Below are positions 25,146 to 37,026 of a stretch of 57,242 nucleotides of DNA, one piece after another (the stretch's first letter is position 1; every line of letters starts with the position of its first letter). Origin of the DNA: Chloroflexota bacterium (GTDB lineage Bacteria; Chloroflexota; Dehalococcoidia; JACPPY01); NCBI GenBank assembly GCA_016190755.1, contig JACPPY010000051.1, forward strand, positions 1 to 57,242. The letters are read 5' to 3'. The notes under the pieces are model-generated. The model was not told where the DNA came from, ran no database searches, and worked only from the letters and a program-made list of their open reading frames with translations. The translations under genes and the position numbers were made by a program.

Positions 25146-26600
25146 CTAATTCGCCTTTTTCAACTTCAATAGACTGCCCCACTTTTGGAGTACCCTGTTT
25201 TGCAGCTCGGCACTCGGGATGACTAACCTGTGCCAGCTTGGGTCCCACTCCACAGGGCGGCAGGCGTCGATAACGGCAGCAGTTTTGTAGGTCGCCTTCA
25301 AAGGCATGATCGGGTAGCCAGCGCTAAAGGCAAAACGTGAGGGATCGATCTGGGACATGTGACTGCTCCAGCAGTAATCCAAAACTTGTATTGCTCGCTT
25401 GGCATCAGTCCTGGTAACCGTTGCCCAAATTACATCATTGAGCACAGTAGGATCGATCTCCTCATCCACTACGATGACCCAGTTGCCTAGATAGTTGCCG
25501 GCATGGCATTGGGAAGCGATCAGCCCTGCCTGACGAGAATGGCCGGCATAAGAATTGCGGATAGAGACGACCGTGAGGTGGTGGCCAAAGAAACAACCTA
25601 CGCCTTTTATCTCCCTCACCCCGGCTTTTTCAAGCTGATCCCATATCAGAGCAGCCTTCTGAAACTCCTGGGGCAGTTCTCCCTTACCAGGAGGATGGTA
25701 TTGTGGAGGTCTCGCCGTAATAATGGGGTCATTTCGGTGGTAAAGACCTTTGACCCTGACCACGGGCAGATTCCGGGGCTCACTATAGCCGGTGCCTTCT
25801 CCGAAAGGCCCTTCCATTGCCATATCCCCCGGCGGGATTTCCCCTTCGATAGCGATTTCGGCCCTCGCCGGAATCGGCAGGCCGGTGAATTGTCCTTTGA
25901 TCACCTCTTCCGGCGACCCTTTCAACCAACCCGAATAATCGAACTCGGTCAACCCATCTTGATGGGTCATGTGGGCTCCGGCAGCGAGATAAAGCGATGG
26001 GTATATCCCGAACACAGCAACAATGGGGCAGGGGTTTCCCTGGCGAAGGTACTTGTCTTTGATGATATAGCTGTCTTTCCCCTCCGAGATGTGGATTCCC
26101 AGGGTCGCCTTGTCATGCACCTGCATCCTGAACATGCCGAAATTGATACGGCCGGTCTCGGGGTCCTTGAGTATTTGGATCCCCTCTGTGCCCAGATATC
26201 TTCCCCCATCTTCCTCATGAAGTTTGGGAACGGGGAATTTCCACAGGTTCACATCCTTCCCGATGGCAACGTTCTCCATAATGGGACCATCGCTCACCCA
26301 TTTGACCGGCACTGATTTGAATTCCTTCAAATGCTCTTTCCAGGCTTTGGTCAGTGCTAACCCCTTCCCCTCCGCCGACCAACCGGTGGCAAGGGAGAAT
26401 CGTTGTCCTGATCCGCCCACCATGTTCACCAAGGTCCGAAAGCCGGCGGGGTAGCCGGCAAATTTGTCCATAAGCACTGCGTTCGAAGACATAAAACAGA
26501 TGGCCCCCACTTCTCCGTCCCAGTTCACGTTGTCAAGGCGGGTAAGTTCTCCTGCTTGATCAACAGCATTGATGAACTGCCTCAAGTCCGTGTACGACAT
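25146..26600 (-). CDS. UbiD family (de)carboxylase, copy 1
   Basis: A 484-residue UbiD-family enzyme that would use prenylated FMN to decarboxylate, or carboxylate, an aromatic or alpha,beta-unsaturated acid. Evidence: N-terminal DLRQFINAVDQAGELTRL, the GRINFGMFRMQVHDKATLGIHI region that lies at the cofactor/metal site, EGPFGEGTGYSEP containing the family's conserved glutamate, and VVDEEIDPTVLNDVIWATVTR. An AAGGAGG ribosome binding site lies ten bases before the ATG. No UbiX prenyltransferase is in the window. It is a paralogue of the gene at 26775-28265 on the same strand, 174 bases away. Confidence 0.92.
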   Translation of the reverse strand: MSYTDLRQFINAVDQAGELTRLDNVNWDGEVGAICFMSSNAVLMDKFAGYPAGFRTLVNMVGGSGQRFSLATGWSAEGKGLALTKAWKEHLKEFKSVPVKWVSDGPIMENVAIGKDVNLWKFPVPKLHEEDGGRYLGTEGIQILKDPETGRINFGMFRMQVHDKATLGIHISEGKDSYIIKDKYLRQGNPCPIVAVFGIYPSLYLAAGAHMTHQDGLTEFDYSGWLKGSPEEVIKGQFTGLPIPARAEIAIEGEIPPGDMAMEGPFGEGTGYSEPRNLPVVRVKGLYHRNDPIITARPPQYHPPGKGELPQEFQKAALIWDQLEKAGVREIKGVGCFFGHHLTVVSIRNSYAGHSRQAGLIASQCHAGNYLGNWVIVVDEEIDPTVLNDVIWATVTRTDAKRAIQVLDYCWSSHMSQIDPSRFAFSAGYPIMPLKATYKTAAVIDACRPVEWDPSWHRLVIPSAELQNRVLQKWGSLLKLKKAN

Positions 26601-26710
26601 TTTCGACTTCCTCCTTATTTCTATCCGTATTTCTATCCGTCAGCTATTTGCTGAGCCACACTTTGAAACTCCCGTGGTTGGGCCTTGCGACACTCTATAG
26701 CAGACGGAGG

Positions 26711-26761
26711 CTAACAACAAAGAGCTGTTGAGATCACTATGGCAGCCAGAGTCTTCTTCAT
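26711..26761 (-). pseudogene. Truncated lipoprotein signal-peptide stub
   Basis: Between the two UbiD genes is an ATG behind a good AAGGAGGA that encodes only MKKTLAAIVISTALCC and then stops. The peptide looks like an intact lipoprotein signal sequence whose mature part is missing. It could be the remnant of a binding-protein gene, or less likely a translated leader for the downstream UbiD gene. Confidence 0.35.
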
Positions 26762-26774
26762 GTATCCTCCTTCA

Positions 26775-28265
26775 TTACTCCGTTGTGGCAGGAATTGGTC
26801 TCGCTGTTGTTGAGTCCTGATGTTTACCCAGTAAGCTCCCCCACTTGGCCTGCACCTTATTCCTTAAATCAGCTCCATATTCCACGTTACGCTTTAATTT
26901 AGGGTCCCATTCAACAGGCCGGCACGCGTCAATGACGCACCTTGAATTATAGACAGGAGCTATAGGTATCGGGTTTTTCTTTTCTTCGTAGGAAATCGCG
27001 GAGTCCATGCGGTCGCTCCAGCAGTACCTTGTGATGTCGATAGCCCTCTGCGGGTCGGCCCTCCTCATGACAGCCCACATGACGTCGTCGATATCGTACG
27101 GATTAATATCCTCATCCACAACAATAATGTATTTGCCCAGGACTCCACCGGCACGGCAATGGGTCGCCAAATGGCCGACCTGCCGGGCCTGCCCGGCGAA
27201 GGTGTTCTTGATAGAGATAACCGTCAGGAATTTCGTGTATCTGGCCACACCCTTAATACCTCTGGCCCCCGCCATCTCCATCTGTTGCCATAGCACGCCC
27301 GAGGCCATTGTCTCACCTCTCAGGCCCGGCTCTCCAGGCTGGCGGTATGTGCTCGGCGGGCGTGTAGCGACAGTCGGTGAGGAGACCGTAAGTATCGGGT
27401 TATTCCGATGCATTAGCCTTTTCACCCGGATTACGTGAGTTTCCCTTGGCTCGCTATATCCTGTCCACTCTCCGAACGGTCCCTCCAAAGCCATGTCGCC
27501 GGGGACTACCTCTCCTTCTATGGCAATCTCTGAGTTGGCAGGGATAGGCAGGCCGGTCAGTTCGCCTTGGACAACTTCGACGGGCTCGCCTCTAAAGCAC
27601 CCAGCGTAGTCATACTCTGACATCCCTCCATAGCTGGACGTTTCGATACAGGAGGCAATGAGAATTGACGGGTCAATCCCTAGAACTGCAGCAACGGGGC
27701 AAGCCTTACCCCGCTTGTGATATTGCTCAATAATCTGTGCAGTATCTTTACCGTGAACAATATGCAAGCCCAGCCTGTTGTGTCCATGAGCCTGCAGCCG
27801 GAACGTGCCGAGATTGATCCGGCCTGTATCTAAATCTCTGGTTATGATGGTATCGTCAGTACCCGCATATCTGCCGCCGTCCTCCGGATGGATCTTGGGA
27901 ATAGGGAACTTGAAGACATCGACATCTTTTTTCTCTTGTACATTCTCAAGAACCACGGCATCAGAAACCACCTTCGGAGGCATAGCATGTATGCTTTGCA
28001 GTCGCTCTTTCCACTCCTTGGCCAGGGCGTTTTGTCGATTGGATGTCAACATGTTAACTGCCAAGAGCCACCTTTGGCCTTTAACCATGTGAATGAGCAT
28101 CCGGTAGCCATGGGGATAGCCGGGAAAGTCGTCGAACAAAATCGCGTCAGGGCACATCTCGGCGAGAGCACCAACCTCCAGGTCCCAACTGACGCCACTC
28201 AATTTGGTCAGTTCTCCCATCGAATCTAGTTGCTCAACGTATTCTCTCAAGTCTTTAAACCCCAT
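26775..28265 (-). CDS. UbiD family (de)carboxylase, copy 2
   Basis: A 496-residue paralogue of the neighbouring UbiD protein with the same blocks: DLREYVEQLDSMGELTKLSG, TGRINLGTFRLQAHGHNRLGL, LEGPFGEWTGYSEP (conserved glutamate segment) and IIVVDEDINPYDIDDVMWAVM. The two differ in loops between these blocks, so they are either different subunits or enzymes with different substrates. The start follows AAGGAGG at ideal spacing. Paired UbiD genes are known for multi-subunit aryl carboxylases/decarboxylases. The nearby tungsten AOR would be compatible with anaerobic aromatic acid metabolism, which is an inference. Confidence 0.92.
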   Translation of the reverse strand: MGFKDLREYVEQLDSMGELTKLSGVSWDLEVGALAEMCPDAILFDDFPGYPHGYRMLIHMVKGQRWLLAVNMLTSNRQNALAKEWKERLQSIHAMPPKVVSDAVVLENVQEKKDVDVFKFPIPKIHPEDGGRYAGTDDTIITRDLDTGRINLGTFRLQAHGHNRLGLHIVHGKDTAQIIEQYHKRGKACPVAAVLGIDPSILIASCIETSSYGGMSEYDYAGCFRGEPVEVVQGELTGLPIPANSEIAIEGEVVPGDMALEGPFGEWTGYSEPRETHVIRVKRLMHRNNPILTVSSPTVATRPPSTYRQPGEPGLRGETMASGVLWQQMEMAGARGIKGVARYTKFLTVISIKNTFAGQARQVGHLATHCRAGGVLGKYIIVVDEDINPYDIDDVMWAVMRRADPQRAIDITRYCWSDRMDSAISYEEKKNPIPIAPVYNSRCVIDACRPVEWDPKLKRNVEYGADLRNKVQAKWGSLLGKHQDSTTARPIPATTE

Positions 28266-28493: not shown

Positions 28494-28554
28494 CTCAAAC
28501 ACCTAACTCCCGCGTGTCTTTCGCAAGCGCTATAATTGATTGACAGCCGTTTAA

Positions 28555-29541
28555 GTGTTGCTTATTATTGCGACACGACAGGGGGGTGCTCCTATTAATA
28601 CAGGTTTTGGTCGCCGAATTGTATTCACATCGCTGGTGCTGGCCTTGTTGGTTTGGCTCACAATAGTGCCCGGAGCGGCCGGTGCAGAGGCTGTGCCGGT
28701 CCGCATCTCTTCCTTCGAGATCAGCACTGTGGACGGCAAGTCGGTCAAGGACGCACCGCTGATGGCGGGAGCCATGTATAAGGTCCAATTGACTATCGAG
28801 GTCGGCCCAGGAATAAAGGACAAGGGATTACTCAAGACAGGCCTCGCCATTTCCGGTGACAGGTACTGGACTTTGAACGGTAAGTATTCCGGAATTGACA
28901 CTGCAACATGGCGTCCAGGTCAGGCAGAGCTGTCTTTCGAAGCTATTGAAGGTATAGTGCAGCTTCAACTTCAGGGCATGGTCCCTCCCGATTTCGTGAC
29001 CGCGGATTTGCCCAACGGGGGCCAACTGCATACAGCCAGGCCGATCAGCCTGGTACGACTTTCCCTGGGATCGGGCAACGTGCTGGACGACAGGTCGCAG
29101 GAAGTCATAGACACGGCCATCGAGAAATACCGCTCGACTCTCGCGGCGAAGGCGGCCATGGTTGATAAGACAACGGCCGACCCACGATATGTCGACTTCG
29201 TTACCGCGGTCATGACCAAGGCAAAGGCCGAGGCCGCCTCCGGCTACACCGAGCAGGCCACCGAAGTGCTGCAGGCCATACCGAATTCAGACTGGATATC
29301 ACCCCAGGGTTCTACCACGCTGCAATGGATACTGGCGGGCGTGTTCTTGCTCGCCGCACTATTTCTGGCATTCCTGCTGATGAGGGCTCGCGCAGATGCC
29401 TCCTTTGTAAGGCAGCAGGCGGACGAGCAGGCCAAGAAACTGGAACTGCTGGCCGCGAAAGCCTCGCGTACCGGCGATACTGCCCTGTCCAACGAGATCA
29501 CTCGTGTTCGGCAGGACCTTGAAGAGGTCGGAGGAAGGTAA
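28555..29541 (+). CDS. Membrane-anchored protein with exported domain, first gene of the tubulin-like locus
   Basis: A 328-residue bitopic protein. An N-terminal hydrophobic signal/anchor (about residues 20-44) precedes a beta-rich outside domain (45-160, from VPVRISSFEISTVDGKSV), then a helical stretch rich in Lys/Ala (175-250), a second membrane segment (256-280, LQWILAGVFLLAALFLAFLL) and a charged coiled-coil tail facing the cytoplasm. I recognise no family. The start codon is uncertain: GTG at 28555 has no ribosome binding site, and a GGGGGG stretch at 28581 precedes only non-standard codons. Its stop is four bases before the tubulin-like gene. It is probably the outside sensor or anchor of the system. 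Confidence 0.75.
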   Translation: MLLIIATRQGGAPINTGFGRRIVFTSLVLALLVWLTIVPGAAGAEAVPVRISSFEISTVDGKSVKDAPLMAGAMYKVQLTIEVGPGIKDKGLLKTGLAISGDRYWTLNGKYSGIDTATWRPGQAELSFEAIEGIVQLQLQGMVPPDFVTADLPNGGQLHTARPISLVRLSLGSGNVLDDRSQEVIDTAIEKYRSTLAAKAAMVDKTTADPRYVDFVTAVMTKAKAEAASGYTEQATEVLQAIPNSDWISPQGSTTLQWILAGVFLLAALFLAFLLMRARADASFVRQQADEQAKKLELLAAKASRTGDTALSNEITRVRQDLEEVGGR

Positions 29542-29545
29542 ACAC

Positions 29546-32284
29546 ATGGCCGAGAACGGCACGAAGAGATTTTATTGTCCCCATTTTGTTGGGCTTGGCG
29601 GCACTGGAGCCGAGATACTTGCTTCCCTCATGAGGAACAAGAACCTGGTACTGCCTTTGCTGAAGACCGAGGGTGTCCGCATCTCGTGTATGGCGCTGGA
29701 CGTCGCCGACGGTGAAGTAAGGACTCTGCTTTCCGCATATGATGAGCTGAAGAAAGAGCTGCGGCTGAGGAATATACCCAGCGAAAAGATACTGCTTACT
29801 ACTAAACTGCTCAAGTTTAATACGCCGCAGGTCATGTTCGATGCCGTCCAGGAATATCCGGAGTATTTGAAGCGTGAGGGCTGCCGGATACCCACCGACT
29901 ACAAGCCATGGCTTACTTCAGCCATGGACATACCGCCTCTGGCTGGCGGCGTAGGCCGTAGGCGTGCCCTGGCCAAGGGTATATACGCACTCAATTATCA
30001 CTTATTGGGAAACGTCAACGAGTCCATTATTTCCTTTAAGGAGCACATGGTGGGCTCGACCTGGCAACCCATCGTCTTCGTCATATATGGCATGGGCGGT
30101 GGTTCAGGCGGTGGGATGGCCCTTGATTTTGTCCGGCACCTGCGCAAACAGCTTGGCAGCGGCGTGCCTGTCATAGGTATCACCATACTGCCCTGTCCGG
30201 GAGACGATCCGCCAGCCAAAGGGGCATCGGCCTTTGTCTCCCTGCTGGAGCATAGCCTTTTGCTGGACAGGGCGGGAAACAACATGGTGGTGAATGAGTT
30301 CGGGTCCTGCTATCAGACCCCGTTCAACGCCTTCTTCATGATGCCGCTTGGGCCTGCCTGGGGTCAGGGAAAGGGCATCCTCTATGCCCGACAGATCATT
30401 GATGATGCGATCGGCGACACGCTGGTGAATTGCATGAACTTCGATCTTGCAGACCTGCTCGCCCATATTGGCACCAACGTTGACCTGGAAGGCAAATGGA
30501 TAAACACGCTGTCCACGGTCAGCCTGTCCTATCCGGTGGAAGAGCACGTAAACCTGACCAAGAGCTATCTTGATAAGCTGGACAAGATAAGGATCCTGCA
30601 GAAGCAAAAACGGGAGATATTTGGCGGGGCCGGCGTCTCTGAGACCGGCGGCGTAAAACGGCTGCTGGAGGCCTGCCGCGGCGAGCTGACCGACATATAT
30701 CGAAGATGGCTCACACAGCGTGGACGGTATGACCCGGAAAAGTTCCCGGAGGCCGTCCGGGCGCTAATCTATGAGGACCGATCAGTCGATTCAGATTATG
30801 TGGTCTACCTGAGAAGCGTACATGAATCCATTCAAGCCCACCTGGATGAGTTGTTCCAATCAGTAAAGGCGGTCGGCCTTGACGCTGCTGAAGGCACGCT
30901 GGAGGCCAGGATCAGGAAGCTCATGCTCGAATTCTATGAGCTTACCAGTGAGCTTCCGAGGAAGCCTCACGAGTTCGAAGCCCGGGTGCCGGAGATCGTG
31001 GCCGGGCTCCCCGAAGACCTGCTCACCGCTCACCATCTGACACCGCGCCAGGTAGAGTTGCTCAGGGACGTGCTTGACCTTGCCCTGCTGATTCAGGACT
31101 ACATTGCGGGCCTGCGCGCCTACCTGGAAATACACAAACTGGCTGACCGACTACACCGGATGGTCGAGGCATCGGCCCAGGGAGAAGACTCTCAGAAGGC
31201 GCTGGAGCTAATCCGGCGCATTTCAAGCCCGGAACTGGTAGTGCTATTCTCGTTCATATCTGCCCTTCACCGCCCCCTAGAGGCCGAATTGAAGAGTCTG
31301 GACGAACACCTCACAAACTGCAGGCGCATGCGGCGTTTGCTGGCAGAGGAAGAACGCGACGCCGAGAGCCTGTGCCAGGGTATCGAGGACCAGCGCCTTT
31401 CCGCTGAAGCTGAGAAGAAGAGGGTGGTCAGGGAGATCGGGCAACTGAGGCCCTTGCTTTCCCCACCGGGTAAGAAGAAGGCGCTCATGGCAAAGCAAGA
31501 CGAGATAAACCAGCGCCTTCAGCTTCTCGACCAGCAGCTGGAGAACTATCGAGTTGACCTGCTCAAGGTACAAAGCAAGATCAAGGAATACGCGACAATA
31601 GAGAGGAAGTATGAGGTAGGCTCGGAGTACAGGGCTCTCATCGTCGAGATAATTGAGATGTCGAGCCAGTATTACGAGAAGCTTAGCGAACTGGGCCGCG
31701 ACCGTGGCTTCTATGATCGGACGGCCGACATGACCGAGAGCGAACGGCTGAAGATAATGCAGGTCATTCTCAAGGGCGACGAGCGGGCGTTGAGCAGGGA
31801 GAACATGCTCAACGAGATAGTCGACCGCGACCACCTGCGCCGTTCGCTGGTCAGTGTAATAAACCTCTTCCGGATGCCGGAAACGCTTGGCCTTACATCA
31901 GACTACAAGACGGACTTCATCTGGTTCACTGTATCCGCGCCGCCCGGCATATGGAGCAAAGACCTGGAGCATGATATAACCACCGCCCTTTCGGGCTACG
32001 TGAGAGAGGATGTCAACCGGTCGGTGTACCTCCGGCACATAGAATCAGCCGACCCGTGGAAGGTCAGATTCCTTGCGGTGGCTGCGAAAGCATGGCCGGG
32101 CTGCCTGGACCTGTATAAGTCCATGAAACACGATTATGAGTCCGCCAACCTGGACGTCAGGCAGCGGTCTCACTCTTTCCTGCTGGAACAAGGGAGAGTA
32201 GTGAAGGACACCGATGGCGGACGGGCTGTGGCACTGGGGCTGTTCGACGACATGGCCATGAAAGCCGGAGACAACAGGCCCTGA
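29546..32284 (+). CDS. Large tubulin/FtsZ-superfamily GTPase (Tubulin_2-like) with coiled-coil tail
   Basis: A 912-residue protein with the tubulin-superfamily plan. Visible features are an N-terminal nucleotide loop FVGLGGTGAEIL (residues 14-25), a variant tubulin signature YGMGGGSGGG (GGGSGGG at 184-190, in place of GGGTGSG), and an intact T7-type loop NFDLAD (298-303), the NxDxxD that acts on the GTP of the next subunit in a filament. After about residue 370 the chain is helical, with strong coiled coil around 590-700, far beyond FtsZ length. The ATG at 29546 follows GGAGGAAGG; an upstream in-frame ATG lies inside the previous gene. It is close in plan to Pfam Tubulin_2/FtsZ-like proteins linked to membrane remodelling. 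Polymerisation is inferred. Confidence 0.8.
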   Translation: MAENGTKRFYCPHFVGLGGTGAEILASLMRNKNLVLPLLKTEGVRISCMALDVADGEVRTLLSAYDELKKELRLRNIPSEKILLTTKLLKFNTPQVMFDAVQEYPEYLKREGCRIPTDYKPWLTSAMDIPPLAGGVGRRRALAKGIYALNYHLLGNVNESIISFKEHMVGSTWQPIVFVIYGMGGGSGGGMALDFVRHLRKQLGSGVPVIGITILPCPGDDPPAKGASAFVSLLEHSLLLDRAGNNMVVNEFGSCYQTPFNAFFMMPLGPAWGQGKGILYARQIIDDAIGDTLVNCMNFDLADLLAHIGTNVDLEGKWINTLSTVSLSYPVEEHVNLTKSYLDKLDKIRILQKQKREIFGGAGVSETGGVKRLLEACRGELTDIYRRWLTQRGRYDPEKFPEAVRALIYEDRSVDSDYVVYLRSVHESIQAHLDELFQSVKAVGLDAAEGTLEARIRKLMLEFYELTSELPRKPHEFEARVPEIVAGLPEDLLTAHHLTPRQVELLRDVLDLALLIQDYIAGLRAYLEIHKLADRLHRMVEASAQGEDSQKALELIRRISSPELVVLFSFISALHRPLEAELKSLDEHLTNCRRMRRLLAEEERDAESLCQGIEDQRLSAEAEKKRVVREIGQLRPLLSPPGKKKALMAKQDEINQRLQLLDQQLENYRVDLLKVQSKIKEYATIERKYEVGSEYRALIVEIIEMSSQYYEKLSELGRDRGFYDRTADMTESERLKIMQVILKGDERALSRENMLNEIVDRDHLRRSLVSVINLFRMPETLGLTSDYKTDFIWFTVSAPPGIWSKDLEHDITTALSGYVREDVNRSVYLRHIESADPWKVRFLAVAAKAWPGCLDLYKSMKHDYESANLDVRQRSHSFLLEQGRVVKDTDGGRAVALGLFDDMAMKAGDNRP

Positions 32285-32308
32285 TCGGCGCCTGCGGGAG
32301 ATAATTCC

Positions 32309-34636
32309 TTGGAGCTCAAGGAAGTAAAGGACCTGCAGGTCAAGGAGCAGGCGTTCAGGCTAACAGCCCTGAACGGCCTGACGTCAGCGTTCATATTTCT
32401 GGCATCGCTGATGCTGCTCCTGCAGGTGCCGCTCTTGCCTCCACAAGTATCTGCCATAAGCGCAATCGTCCTGGGAATTGTCGCGTTCAAAACCCCTCGA
32501 CTGGCCCTCGGGCTAATGTTTCTACTGGCTGTGCCGGCATATACATACCAGTTCGGTCTTCCCTTTGAAGTCCTATTCGGTATGTCATCGGTGCTCCTGG
32601 TAACGACAGTGGCCACAGGAGGCACCGGGTCAGCCCTGGGCATCGCTACCGGCGCCATAGCCGCAATGCTTATGTTTACTCCATTTTTCGTACTTGCTGT
32701 TCCCCTTGTCGTTGCCGTGCCTCTCCTTACCGAACGGGGAGGCAAAATAGGCAGCATGGGGGCCGTTGTGACCTTCATCACCCTTTATGTGCCCTTGCTG
32801 GTATCATCCATAACCGTTCCGTCATTGAACAGGGATGCATTCGTGCCCTTGCTGCAACAGGTCTCCACAGTCATGAAACTACCACTGACCCTGGTCGACC
32901 TCAATACCGTGGTATCTGTGGTGAACGACAGCATCAGTCGGGGCGCTGCGGCTGACTCGCTCCTGGACAAAACAAACATCTATATCACTGTGTTCAGGAC
33001 AACTGACTTACCGGGCAGATTACTCGGAGTCGTGCTTGGTGGATTCCTTCTGGCCAGTTCCGTGGTCGCGTTCGGCTCGGTTGCCCTGCTCAGGTGGTTG
33101 GAGCATCGCGAAGTCGGCGGGAAGAACCTCCTCTGGATCACGCCCGCGGCCGCGATGGTTGCTGCATCTCTTGCATTCCTTGTCTTGCTGGGCATCCTGG
33201 GAGAGTCCTTCAAATACCAGGTGGTCCTCGATGGCGGAGCAGTATTCGCCTTTCTGGCGAGCGCCATCACACTTGGTGAAGTTGGCTCTCTCATAGAGTA
33301 CTGGCTGCGGCAGAGGGACATCGCCATCAAGCTTAGAGGCACAGTATTCCACGCGGAACCCATCATAATGGAAAAGAGCGTTATCCTCCGGCAGCGGGTC
33401 AAGAACGCAACAGAAGTCTCGCCCGCATTGAGTTTGTATGGCGAGGAGGCACTGGCGCAGGAGGCCGAGCAGGAGTTGTCGTTCACGTCTACAGCCACCG
33501 TGGAAGAGATGGACACTGAGGGACTCGATCAGAAGGTCACTCTATTCCAGGACCTGGAAGCACGGCTGGATGCTTCCCTCCACGAGACGTTCCGCAAGAC
33601 CCGCCTCAATTACGAAGATGGCGTACAACGATACAACGAGTCCCTGCGCATAGCCTCGGAATACGGCTACTCCCTTGGAGGCCCAGTAGAAGGGCTCTCC
33701 CATGCCGTTCTGGATTCTATGTCGTTCGAGGACATATTGAAAGAGCAGGCTGTTCTCAACGCGCTCTATCTGAAGGCGTCCGAGTCGATAGTACATTCGG
33801 CCGATGAGTTGGAGCAGACACTGCACTCTGAAGTAGACCGGGAGTTCAAATCGGTCTCCCTGGAGATAGCTCGAAATTACCTCTCCCAGTGGAAGCACAT
33901 TGAGGCCATGGACGCCGTGCTCGGTGAACTGTCGAACATAGACCGTCTGCTTGAGAAGCGCGCGGCTGGCCTCGAAGCCCGTTTGGTCTCCACCATAGAA
34001 GACATGACGGAGGTATTCCAACTGTCCCTGGTCCCAGCTATCGAGGTGTCCGGCGATCCCGCCGGCGCAAAGCAATACGTCAACCTTCTTACCAGCCCCG
34101 GCGGTCCGTTCGTATATCGATCTGAGAAGAAACGACTTCCCGACCTTCTAAGCATGGTCAAGAAGACGAGGGACATAGGTGATACGGCTGCGTCCGTGGT
34201 ATCGGACCTCTCTCACAGGATAGCCGCCATCGAAAAGGAGATCGAGTCCAAAGTCCCGGAGGGCTACGATTGGGGTAAGGACTCGAATACCAAGGTCGAG
34301 AAGGACATCGGTCATACGCTATCCAGCTACAGAGAGACCGGCGGATGGGCCGATGTTGACACTCGAATGAGCAATATCGGTGAGGCGATAGCTGTAATCC
34401 GGGATGCATCTGCCTTGTTGAAACAGCGTGTGACAACTCGCGAGTTCCTCATCAATTACGCGAACGTTGAGTACCTTGCGGAAGATGTTCTCCAGCGGAA
34501 TGGCGTTGTAGTAGAAGCTGACCTGCCTGTGCTGCCCGCGTTCGCACGCCAGTACCTGAGACTGTACGCCGGAAAACATCCGCGTGAGTTCGTATTCGAA
34601 ACGGATGCCTCGAGGCTCAGACCAAGGCAGAGTTAG
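32309..34636 (+). CDS. Polytopic membrane protein with long helical cytoplasmic tail
   Basis: A 775-residue protein. Roughly residues 18-170 contain five to six membrane helices, residues 171-237 form a predicted outside loop (PSLNRDAFVPLLQQVSTVMK onward), and three more helices lie at about 238-333. The remaining 440 residues are soluble, highly charged and helical, with coiled-coil character at 385-600. There is no similarity I can name. The start is TTG at 32309 with GGGAG at eight-base spacing. It lies 24 bases after the tubulin-like gene and is the obvious candidate for a membrane receptor or scaffold for its filament. Confidence 0.75.
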   Translation: MELKEVKDLQVKEQAFRLTALNGLTSAFIFLASLMLLLQVPLLPPQVSAISAIVLGIVAFKTPRLALGLMFLLAVPAYTYQFGLPFEVLFGMSSVLLVTTVATGGTGSALGIATGAIAAMLMFTPFFVLAVPLVVAVPLLTERGGKIGSMGAVVTFITLYVPLLVSSITVPSLNRDAFVPLLQQVSTVMKLPLTLVDLNTVVSVVNDSISRGAAADSLLDKTNIYITVFRTTDLPGRLLGVVLGGFLLASSVVAFGSVALLRWLEHREVGGKNLLWITPAAAMVAASLAFLVLLGILGESFKYQVVLDGGAVFAFLASAITLGEVGSLIEYWLRQRDIAIKLRGTVFHAEPIIMEKSVILRQRVKNATEVSPALSLYGEEALAQEAEQELSFTSTATVEEMDTEGLDQKVTLFQDLEARLDASLHETFRKTRLNYEDGVQRYNESLRIASEYGYSLGGPVEGLSHAVLDSMSFEDILKEQAVLNALYLKASESIVHSADELEQTLHSEVDREFKSVSLEIARNYLSQWKHIEAMDAVLGELSNIDRLLEKRAAGLEARLVSTIEDMTEVFQLSLVPAIEVSGDPAGAKQYVNLLTSPGGPFVYRSEKKRLPDLLSMVKKTRDIGDTAASVVSDLSHRIAAIEKEIESKVPEGYDWGKDSNTKVEKDIGHTLSSYRETGGWADVDTRMSNIGEAIAVIRDASALLKQRVTTREFLINYANVEYLAEDVLQRNGVVVEADLPVLPAFARQYLRLYAGKHPREFVFETDASRLRPRQS

Positions 34637-34687
34637 CGGTCCGAGATTGCGGCAACACAACTGGTCGAAAGTGACTGCAAGAGGCTC

Positions 34688-35755
34688 ATGAGCGGAGTCG
34701 AAAACGAAAAGAAAAACATGTCAAAGCTGAAGACGAATGGAAAGCCTGTAGGCGACGTCCTTGCCGACGTGCAGGTGGCGGCATGGCGAAATCCAAAGGT
34801 TTACCGCCTGATGGTGCTGCCACAGCATCTCCTTTTCTACAGCAGAGGACCTCTCTGGCGCCGGCTCAAGCTGGAAGAGAAGCTTGAGGTACACAGCATT
34901 ACGGGCTTTCGGCTCTCCGGCAGCAGTCTGGCTATCGATATCAAGGCGGGTGGGGAAACCTCACGGCCTGAAGAGATCGCCTTTGATACTGTAGACCAGG
35001 CAGCTATGGTGCGAGCTGCCCTGGCCCAAATTCTGGGGCCCCTGGACGAAATTGCGGAGAAGGCGAGACTGGAACTGGAGGAAGAGGAAAGACGAAAAAA
35101 GCGAGAGCAAGCCCTCCGGTCGTTCCAGACCCTGATACGGGCAAAGTTGTGTTGCCTTTGGGAGACGACCAAGAATGCATACGGTATGGCGATAGCAGTT
35201 ACGTCCCAGGACTGGGACCAGGCGCACGCGAAATATGACCTGCTATTTCGGTATGTAAATGACTTGCAGAAGGAAAACGGGCCGGACGTGACAGGAGACA
35301 TGGAAGCCCTGGGCATGGCCACCGGCGCGAAAAACGGCGGAGATGTTATCGGGCAAACTGCATCCCTCCTCAGCAGGATAGCCGATGAGCTTTCCAGGAC
35401 AAGGCCCCGAGGGCCGGAGGCCCAGGAAAGCTGGGTCGAGGAATCGGCATCGCCAAACTGGGGGGACGCACTGTTCTTTTTCCTGTTCTCCGTGGCGTAT
35501 TACGACGCGCTTCTGTCTCGGCAGGCGGGTGATTGGCTCGGCATACAGCGATGTGTGCGGCAGATCTGCGAGCTAGGGCCGGTCATGGAAAAACGCTTTT
35601 CCATCGTTTGTGATGGCCGTTTCAAGGAACTGAAAACACAGGCGGATAGGCGGGATGCGGTACAGTTCCTTCAGGCGCTCGAAAAACTGGGGGAGGAAGT
35701 GGAGGCAAACTGCAAGCAGGTCACTTCTGCATGCGGGTTAGGGGCGACTGAATGA
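34688..35755 (+). CDS. Soluble protein with PH-like N-terminal domain and helical C-terminus
   Basis: A 355-residue soluble protein. Residues about 35-125 alternate short strands ending in a helix (VYRLMVLPQHLLFYSRGP, KLEVHSITGFRLSG, then AAMVRAALAQIL), which looks like a bacterial PH-type fold; this is a guess from the pattern. It is followed by a charged helix rich in Glu/Lys/Arg (126-146) and an all-helical domain. There is no catalytic motif. Its stop overlaps the start of the FtsZ-like gene by four bases (ATGA), showing translational coupling and suggesting a stable complex with that protein. Confidence 0.65.
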   Translation: MSGVENEKKNMSKLKTNGKPVGDVLADVQVAAWRNPKVYRLMVLPQHLLFYSRGPLWRRLKLEEKLEVHSITGFRLSGSSLAIDIKAGGETSRPEEIAFDTVDQAAMVRAALAQILGPLDEIAEKARLELEEEERRKKREQALRSFQTLIRAKLCCLWETTKNAYGMAIAVTSQDWDQAHAKYDLLFRYVNDLQKENGPDVTGDMEALGMATGAKNGGDVIGQTASLLSRIADELSRTRPRGPEAQESWVEESASPNWGDALFFFLFSVAYYDALLSRQAGDWLGIQRCVRQICELGPVMEKRFSIVCDGRFKELKTQADRRDAVQFLQALEKLGEEVEANCKQVTSACGLGATE

Positions 35756-37026
35756 TTCGTTGCCCCGACAGACATGAGAATCCGCAGACACTGGCACACT
35801 GCAGGGTGTGCGGGCTTCCTCTGATAGACCCATTGCGTGAGATCGGCCCGTTCATAGAGAATCTCAGAGCCAGGACCATACTTGGCATGCCAAAGTCAAT
35901 GAATGTGCTGATTGGGACAGGCTCCGTGGGCAAAAAACTGGTTTTGGAGGCGGCCATCCCGGGCAACAACGGTCAAGGCGAAGCGTACTCATATCTCATC
36001 GCGGATTCAACGGCCGTATCTGATCTGGCAACAGGCAAGACACTATTCAACGTGCGAATTGGGGATGCCGGTTCACATGGCGCGCTCTTCTGCGGCAGTG
36101 CTGAGCACGCCGCAGAAGGGGACTTGGCCCTGGTCCCTGCCCTGAAAGGTTGCGGATTGAGGAGCAATGATGACCGGCAGACCGTGATCCTGGTTACGGC
36201 TCTAGGCGGAGGTACTGGTAGCGGTACTGCGCCGGTCGTACTCAGGCATTGCCACGCATTAAACCCAGGCCTCAACGGCTTTGTCCTCGCCATCAGCCCG
36301 GGCGAAGACGAATCGGTGCACGCGCACGTGAACGCCCTATATGGTCTGGCGCGACTCCTCGACAATGGGCCTATGTCGGACGGCGTGGTGGTTGTACAGT
36401 ACGACAGGCTCAAACATGTGCACGGCATCGGCAATACCGGCGAGGAGATCAAAGGTGAGGCGCTAATAACATCCATACTTCAGCTCATGCTGTCCGCGCT
36501 CCGATCGCCGAACTCCATGAAGTTCAGCAGACTGAATCGCGCTATGCAGACACACGTCCTTGTCCCCTGTCTGGCCCTAGGCCGCAGCCTGAAAATATTC
36601 GGAAACCTGGGCAACGTGTTTCGAAGCGCGCTGGCCTATCCTTTAGCTCCATTGATAAAAGATAATGTTACTATCTCCTACCTGCTCCTGCGTATACCGC
36701 GAAGGCTGGCTCAGGAATGCACGGACAACCTTGTCGCCGACGAGCTATCGGCTTTTAACCGGAAGTACCTGCCGGGGGTCAGGGCGATGCTGTTTCAAAC
36801 GACCATCGTCGAAGGACAATCAGACCGGATAGATGCCTGCCTGTTGTTGGGGGGCGATAGCATTGCCAATGCCGCGCCCGCTGCCAGGGCAAACTACGAG
36901 AAGTTCAGACGGCAACTTGGAGACCGCTGGCCGGCCTATGGCCTGACTGAAGAGAGGGGCAGGTCAGCCGAGCAATTGATCGCCAGCTACGACGCGCGGA
37001 TGGAAGAGCTGAGAGAGTCTGGTTAA
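35752..37026 (+). CDS. Second FtsZ/tubulin-like GTPase with N-terminal zinc-ribbon motif
   Basis: A 424-residue protein. The first 21 residues contain a zinc-ribbon-like cysteine set (C4, C17, C20, with H8 and H16). The FtsZ-like core follows: VLIGTGSVGKK (53-63), the exact tubulin signature GGGTGSG at 152-158, ESVHAHVNALYGLARLLDN matching the FtsZ helix that contacts the guanine, and VVVVQYDRL corresponding to VIPNDRL. The segment aligned with the FtsZ T7 loop reads MKFSRLNRAM (K257, R260 where Asp is expected), so the residues that activate GTP hydrolysis in the neighbouring subunit appear lost. Last gene of the five-gene locus; its 3' end overlaps a convergent restriction-enzyme remnant. 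Confidence 0.85.
   Translation: MIRCPDRHENPQTLAHCRVCGLPLIDPLREIGPFIENLRARTILGMPKSMNVLIGTGSVGKKLVLEAAIPGNNGQGEAYSYLIADSTAVSDLATGKTLFNVRIGDAGSHGALFCGSAEHAAEGDLALVPALKGCGLRSNDDRQTVILVTALGGGTGSGTAPVVLRHCHALNPGLNGFVLAISPGEDESVHAHVNALYGLARLLDNGPMSDGVVVVQYDRLKHVHGIGNTGEEIKGEALITSILQLMLSALRSPNSMKFSRLNRAMQTHVLVPCLALGRSLKIFGNLGNVFRSALAYPLAPLIKDNVTISYLLLRIPRRLAQECTDNLVADELSAFNRKYLPGVRAMLFQTTIVEGQSDRIDACLLLGGDSIANAAPAARANYEKFRRQLGDRWPAYGLTEERGRSAEQLIASYDARMEELRESG

Follow-up and report, generated by a model that had tools for sequence, protein, structure and literature searches.

The window analyzed here, positions 1-57,242 of contig JACPPY010000051.1 of a Chloroflexota bacterium (assembly GCA_016190755.1), carries a block of five co-directional genes on its + strand, which we call A to E (28555-37026). 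The genes are tightly spaced, with gaps of 4, 24 and 51 bases followed by a 4-base overlap between D and E. An earlier note, made from the sequence alone, described the block as encoding two tubulin/FtsZ-like GTPases together with two membrane proteins, and a check of the open reading frames (ORFs) returned frames, strands, lengths and spacings exactly as it gave them. Both B and E score above the Pfam cut-offs of tubulin-superfamily profiles and match tubulin-type structures, and that part of the note stands. Judged from their sequences, they are better read as one GTPase and one pseudo-GTPase, rather than as two GTPases. Relatives of these proteins have already been described; the asymmetry between B and E is the key new point.

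Gene B (29546..32284, + strand) encodes 912 residues from an ATG; a GTG 42 bases upstream also lies in the open frame. The product is a predicted GTPase of FtsZl1/Tubulin_2-like type, matching Pfam Tubulin_2 (PF13809) with 36 bits against a cut-off of 27, and it bears the nucleotide-loop motifs that the earlier note had picked out, with T1 as GLGGTG (residues 16-21) and T4 as GGGSGGG (residues ~184-190). Helix H7 (278-298) leads into NFDLAD (298-303), encoded at 30437..30454 on the + strand, and profile alignment places this motif opposite the T7 motif NLDFAD of FtsZ. The T7 acids (xDxxD) are kept in all 31 B sequences, D300 and D303 being invariant, and the GTP loop T4 is intact in 30 of them, the remaining one being truncated at its 5' end. 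Because H7 is followed by NFDLAD with these two invariant aspartates, B is filed on sequence grounds as a distinct, T7-positive branch of the broad FtsZl1/Tubulin_2 family. In Chloroflexota, a further 12 Tubulin_2 proteins whose GTP loop can be recognized all lack NxDxxD after that loop.

Structures were predicted with AlphaFold2 (AF2) as single-chain models of B and E only. The model of B (predicted local distance difference test, pLDDT, 80.9; predicted template modeling score, pTM, 0.70) runs from an N-terminal GTPase domain through H7 and a strand into a coiled coil (331-717), and ends in an alpha/beta part at ~780-870. In this model the coiled coil is an insertion of ~390 residues between core strands S7 and S8, and the C-terminal alpha/beta segment 792-849 has the order S8-H10-S9-S10, for which profile comparison gave no significant match. 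B has no transmembrane (TM) segments. Foldseek matched the model to CetZ2, FtsZ, gamma-tubulin and TubZ. Our reading of the model is that the C-terminal part may be the second tubulin domain, with the coiled coil set between the two domains. A shorter relative on a Rhodococcus plasmid, in which the coiled coil is missing, aligns to B residues 2-272 and weakly again to 777-888, and this partial second match would fit such a reading, in a way that is only suggestive.

Gene E (35752..37026, + strand; 424 residues) starts with the zinc ribbon seen by the earlier note (CPDRHENPQTLAHCRVCG, with the pattern CxxxxHxN..CxxC) and continues as a two-domain tubulin/FtsZ fold with GGGTGSG as its T4 loop. 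It matches Pfam Tubulin (PF00091) with 39 bits against a cut-off of 33, a profile matched by 16 of 18 E members. The score against the NCBIfam FtsZ model is weak (23.6 bits, where the cut-off is 295), and E is therefore not the FtsZ of cell division. Its AF2 model, built with 15 sequences, has the complete two-domain fold (pLDDT 85.7, pTM 0.83). Foldseek aligned it over its whole length with CetZ, tubulins and FtsZ, the best match being CetZ (3zid, E-value 4e-16), and identity to the CetZ, FtsZ and tubulin structures in these alignments is ~13-18%.

The catalytic acids are what E lacks. The window protein has FSRL where FADV would be expected at T7, and the NxDxxD motif is absent from all 29 E members. 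The second catalytic position, an aspartate in FtsZ, is lysine or arginine in most of 18 aligned members and glutamate in many further E sequences of Bathyarchaeota type. The GTP loop T4 is kept in 11 of the 29, comprising all ten from Chloroflexota and one from a Thaumarchaeote, and is degraded in the other 18, all archaeal; the zinc ribbon is present in bacteria and Thaumarchaeota and lost in Bathyarchaeota. Given that T7 is missing throughout and T4 is lost in most archaeal members, E is probably a pseudo-GTPase and not a working GTPase. The claim of two GTPases would thus hold for B, which keeps both the GTP loop and T7, but probably not for E.

Among 60 relatives including the window genome, homologs of B and C occur in the same four genomes, where strong matches to E are found as well. 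All four keep the order A-B-C-D-E, one of them split over two contigs, and one carries a second copy of the module without A. Six further Chloroflexota genomes hold C; five show the full order, successive genes overlapping or lying from a few bases up to a few dozen apart, and in the sixth it is broken. The earlier note had proposed such a survey of gene neighborhoods and had named a lack of fold match or of linkage as grounds against its reading; about ten genomes of Chloroflexota (Dehalococcoidia) share the five-gene order, and both proteins match the fold. When the ORFs around the loci were clustered, A-E were the only widely recurring genes, other neighbor families being confined to at most four loci each, and no conserved functional neighbor was found outside the set. 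At 25 loci A, B, C and E are all neighbors; over these, pairwise distances correlate at r 0.93-0.97, as high a correlation being reached in none of 2000 permutations, and the main splits coincide in the unrooted trees of B, C and E. Shared order, neighbor clustering, distance correlation and tree agreement therefore mark the set as an inherited unit and not a chance neighborhood. Within it, E diverges much faster than B (17-45% versus 33-60% identity to the window protein).

The earlier note had proposed a survey in Chloroflexota, but the module is not specific to that phylum. A scan of named genomes found it in metagenome-assembled genomes (MAGs) of Dehalococcoidia/Chloroflexi and, as a surprise, also in MAGs of Thaumarchaeota and Bathyarchaeota, where B is 33-46% identical along its entire length and in most cases adjoined by A, C and E. 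In most of the strong archaeal loci, A-B is followed first by E, which lies on the opposite strand, and next by C. The module occurs more often in the archaeal phylum that was sampled, with C in 23 of 398 further genomes, than in Chloroflexota, where carriers number 10 of 393 in the window's own class and C occurs in one of 400 genomes drawn across the phylum. Because the carriers among archaea outnumber the bacterial ones and are more varied, the distribution suggests, with trees that are unrooted, that the module was transferred from archaea into Dehalococcoidia. A canonical FtsZ (409 bits) lies on another contig of the window genome, and one is present in the three nearest carriers, so that each of the four Chloroflexota genomes searched has it, as do three Bathyarchaeota; since ordinary FtsZ is present in the same genomes, we reject cell division as the primary role of the module. 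We also reject a phage or plasmid origin: there is no relative in IMG/VR or phage records, and plasmids yielded only distant, short B-like pairs in Rhodococcus.

The remaining genes are two membrane proteins and one soluble protein. Gene A (28555..29541, + strand; 328 residues, exact start uncertain) has an N-terminal signal or TM segment at ~17-47, an exported domain of ~200 residues, a second TM segment at ~252-282 and, at its C-terminal end, a conserved cytosolic helical tail of ~45 residues. Gene C (32309..34636, + strand; 775 residues) has ~8-9 TM segments in residues 18-323, followed by a soluble, largely helical half of ~450 residues. TM segments were counted by simple hydropathy and not by a trained predictor; by this measure the two-TM topology of A is alike in bacterial and archaeal homologs and that of C is kept in both domains of life (8 homologs), in agreement with the two membrane proteins of the earlier note. 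Gene D (34688..35755, + strand; 355 residues) is soluble, the alignment pattern indicating ~100 beta-rich N-terminal residues with the rest helical, and is the fastest-evolving member of the set. The PH-like label once given to D was an impression from this pattern that no profile supports; the N-terminal pattern is PH/GRAM-like, but we do not adopt a PH domain on that basis, nor do we take a CheF-arch match in 2 of 12 members (E-value 0.056) as evidence. A, C and D have no significant family in Pfam, NCBIfam or PADLOC, and A and C no significant match among PDB sequences; weak matches of C to coiled coils, apolipoproteins and F-BAR were rejected as composition noise. At four archaeal loci (L130, L131, L133 and L134), C-like polytopic proteins stand with no A, B or E nearby, an upstream ORF of ~105 residues being common to three of them, and C may be one branch of a wider family of membrane proteins.

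Hydrolysis in tubulin-type filaments works across subunits, the T7 acids of one acting on the GTP bound by its neighbor. Alpha/beta tubulin is a pair with one catalytically complete T7 face, beta-tubulin having a lysine in place of the catalytic glutamate of alpha. The acid-to-basic swap in E, as placed by alignment, recalls beta-tubulin. We propose that the products of all five genes assemble into a single GTP-driven filament complex anchored in the membrane, in which B polymerizes, A and C form the tether and E acts as cap or partner; we think this model about equally likely to hold or to fail. B subunits would stack head to tail, the T7 acids of one completing the GTPase site of the next to give a dynamic filament. 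The coiled coil of B could serve as an arm docking on the soluble helical half of C, on the cytosolic tail of A or on both, and D might be an adaptor; A and C might alternatively be contacted by E or D. Since its T7 face would be unable to trigger hydrolysis, E may enter the filament as an end cap or as a partner that does not hydrolyze GTP. Through C and the exported domain of A, the filament might then bend the membrane, or organize or move surface components. We slightly favor membrane remodeling over surface-protein organization or secretion, purpose being the least certain step. Polymerization, contacts, anchoring and purpose are what we infer here, and a membrane-tethered cytomotive machine, as the earlier note had it, would be the outcome. 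It is tempting to go further, with less confidence, and to speculate that this is an undescribed cytoskeletal machine of some bacteria and archaea, in which a membrane-tethered filament of catalytically complete B with a giant coiled coil is joined by an obligate, decaying pseudo-tubulin E and a dedicated two-protein anchor. This would be an independent invention of the active-inactive principle of alpha/beta tubulin.

Several observations weigh against such a filament complex. The fit of B to the tubulin fold is partial (template modeling score on the target ~0.45 by Foldseek), and profile comparison did not confirm its C-terminal part as the FtsZ C-domain. One locus with B has no convincing E (L132) and another only a weak match to it (L135), and neighboring genes offer no direct clue to function. 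E may also still bind or even hydrolyze GTP in Chloroflexota, since all E sequences there keep the GTP loop. If B and E were instead an obligate alpha/beta-like heterodimer forming a 1:1 copolymer, with E as a building block and not as a cap or regulator of the B filament, one would expect them to be constantly paired and co-diverging, as they are (r 0.948), and the full fold of E and the complementary state of T7, kept in B and lost in E, would suit this arrangement. We consider it unlikely, however: archaeal E has a degraded nucleotide loop and E has the lower identities, and a cap or adaptor fits better because selection should hold more tightly on a subunit that fills alternate places along the filament.

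Other readings give the module a different task. The two membrane proteins and the conserved exported domain could belong to a specialized device for secretion, surface-protein transport or gliding, with A and C as channel or anchor and B-E as cytoplasmic motor, and large surface proteins (Big_1/transglutaminase, TIG, InlB-repeat) do adjoin some loci; these neighbors are not kept between lineages, however, and C resembles no known channel, which leaves this reading improbable. A biological-conflict (defense) system, in which invasion would trigger assembly of the tubulin-like proteins, comparable to the tubulin/GTPase systems found in Firmicutes and Actinobacteria (PMC7159879), seems very unlikely. 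Tubulin domains combined with coiled coils do occur in those systems, at times as a pair in one locus, and the distribution of our module is patchy and looks horizontally mobile, but no vWA, MoxR, TRAFAC GTPase, HSP70 or effector gene recurs beside it, the match in a defense library (PADLOC) is coiled-coil noise only, and the gene set is constant, with no variable effector slot. We give hardly any credence to DNA or plasmid positioning after the manner of TubZ/RepX, for which the short B-like pairs on Rhodococcus megaplasmids might speak; the module looks chromosomal, has two membrane proteins, no DNA-binding partner and, as noted, no viral or phage relatives.

The filament complex that we prefer shares features with several known systems. 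FtsZl1 operons have vWA, P-loop GTPase, kinase and OmpA partners, and membrane remodeling has been suggested for FtsZl1 in general; the T6-H7/T7 region could not be identified in that family, and a reviewer queried its polymerization (Makarova and Koonin 2010, PMC2875224). B resembles FtsZl1 in its N-terminal FtsZ-like domain with GGG(S/T)G, its long coiled coil and its further C-terminal region, as well as in association with membrane proteins and occurrence in genomes also holding FtsZ. It differs in having the FtsZ-type T7 motif NxDxxD, and its operon has the fixed set A, C, D and E in place of vWA, P-loop GTPase, kinase and OmpA-like genes, none of which was found among the sampled module neighbors. 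FtsZl2 has all nucleotide-domain motifs including T7, carries an alpha/beta C-terminal extension of ~300 residues and is limited to Proteobacteria, whereas in E the T7 motif is missing, the chain closes with the second tubulin domain, and the carriers are Chloroflexota and archaea; we therefore reject this label for E. Of the FtsZl-1 and FtsZl-2 families that the earlier note cited as background, the first finds a counterpart here, B having its place in the broad FtsZl1/Tubulin_2 family, and nothing links E to the second.

In tubulin-containing conflict systems, paralogous TRAFAC GTPases occur with tubulin and vWA/HSP70 (Kaur et al. 2020, PMC7159879). The fusion of tubulin domains to coiled coils, and sometimes two such genes per locus, are points of likeness, but the module lacks the defining GTPase, vWA, HSP70 and FNIII components. 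E has the complete two-domain fold of CetZ, FtsZ and BtubA-BtubB, the link to CetZ being one of fold similarity only, and departs from them in its zinc ribbon (in bacteria and Thaumarchaeota) and its missing T7 acids, as B does in its inserted coiled coil. Unassigned FtsZ-like proteins have been noted in Bathyarchaeia and Nitrososphaeria (Thaumarchaeota), the same archaeal groups that hold E and B; the relevant passage of the Culexarchaeia paper describes them without an operon or partner set (PMC9723716). Among open-licence papers found under FtsZl1 names and PF13809, none treats the A-E gene set or the B/E asymmetry, and the 2010 supplementary tables may already list these neighbors.

A role for FtsZl1-type proteins has been predicted since 2010 and is still only predicted, partly because their catalytic and polymerization elements could not be found. 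Because the B branch has a recognizable T7 motif, filament formation can be put to a direct test. Candidate membrane anchors are found in the fixed partner set, E with its decaying tubulin fold offers a natural comparison for the origin of asymmetric tubulin pairs, and conservation of the block across two domains of life provides many homologs for structural work.

Around the block, a promoter-like TTGACA-17-TATTAT of sigma-70 type (28540..28568, + strand; an 11/12 consensus match only) overlaps the proposed GTG start of A. Because of this overlap, translation of A probably begins further downstream, past 28568, and the ATT at 28594 is perhaps a candidate alternative start. Upstream of the block, two neighboring long ORFs on the minus strand (484 and 496 residues; window 25146-28265) resemble what we take to be related UbiD-type decarboxylases, and clustering of the ORFs around loci placed a relative of theirs near the module at locus L049. 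That locus belongs to the Dehalococcoidia genome G009, which has two diverged module copies (L027/L041 and L028/L049), one without A. Very large surface-type proteins of the Big_1/transglutaminase, TIG and InlB-repeat kinds adjoin the module in several genomes without being kept from one lineage to another (L044:17493-21923, L045:8702-13117, L050:17117-19954 and L051:6122-8824). Rhodococcus jostii plasmid pRHL2 (L136:11854-15434) and 12 other plasmid records hold two tandem short B-like proteins. Those of pRHL2 have 514 and 568 residues and no coiled coil; the second keeps GGGTGSG, NxDxxD is present in neither, and the two are a possible plasmid-borne tubulin-like pair.

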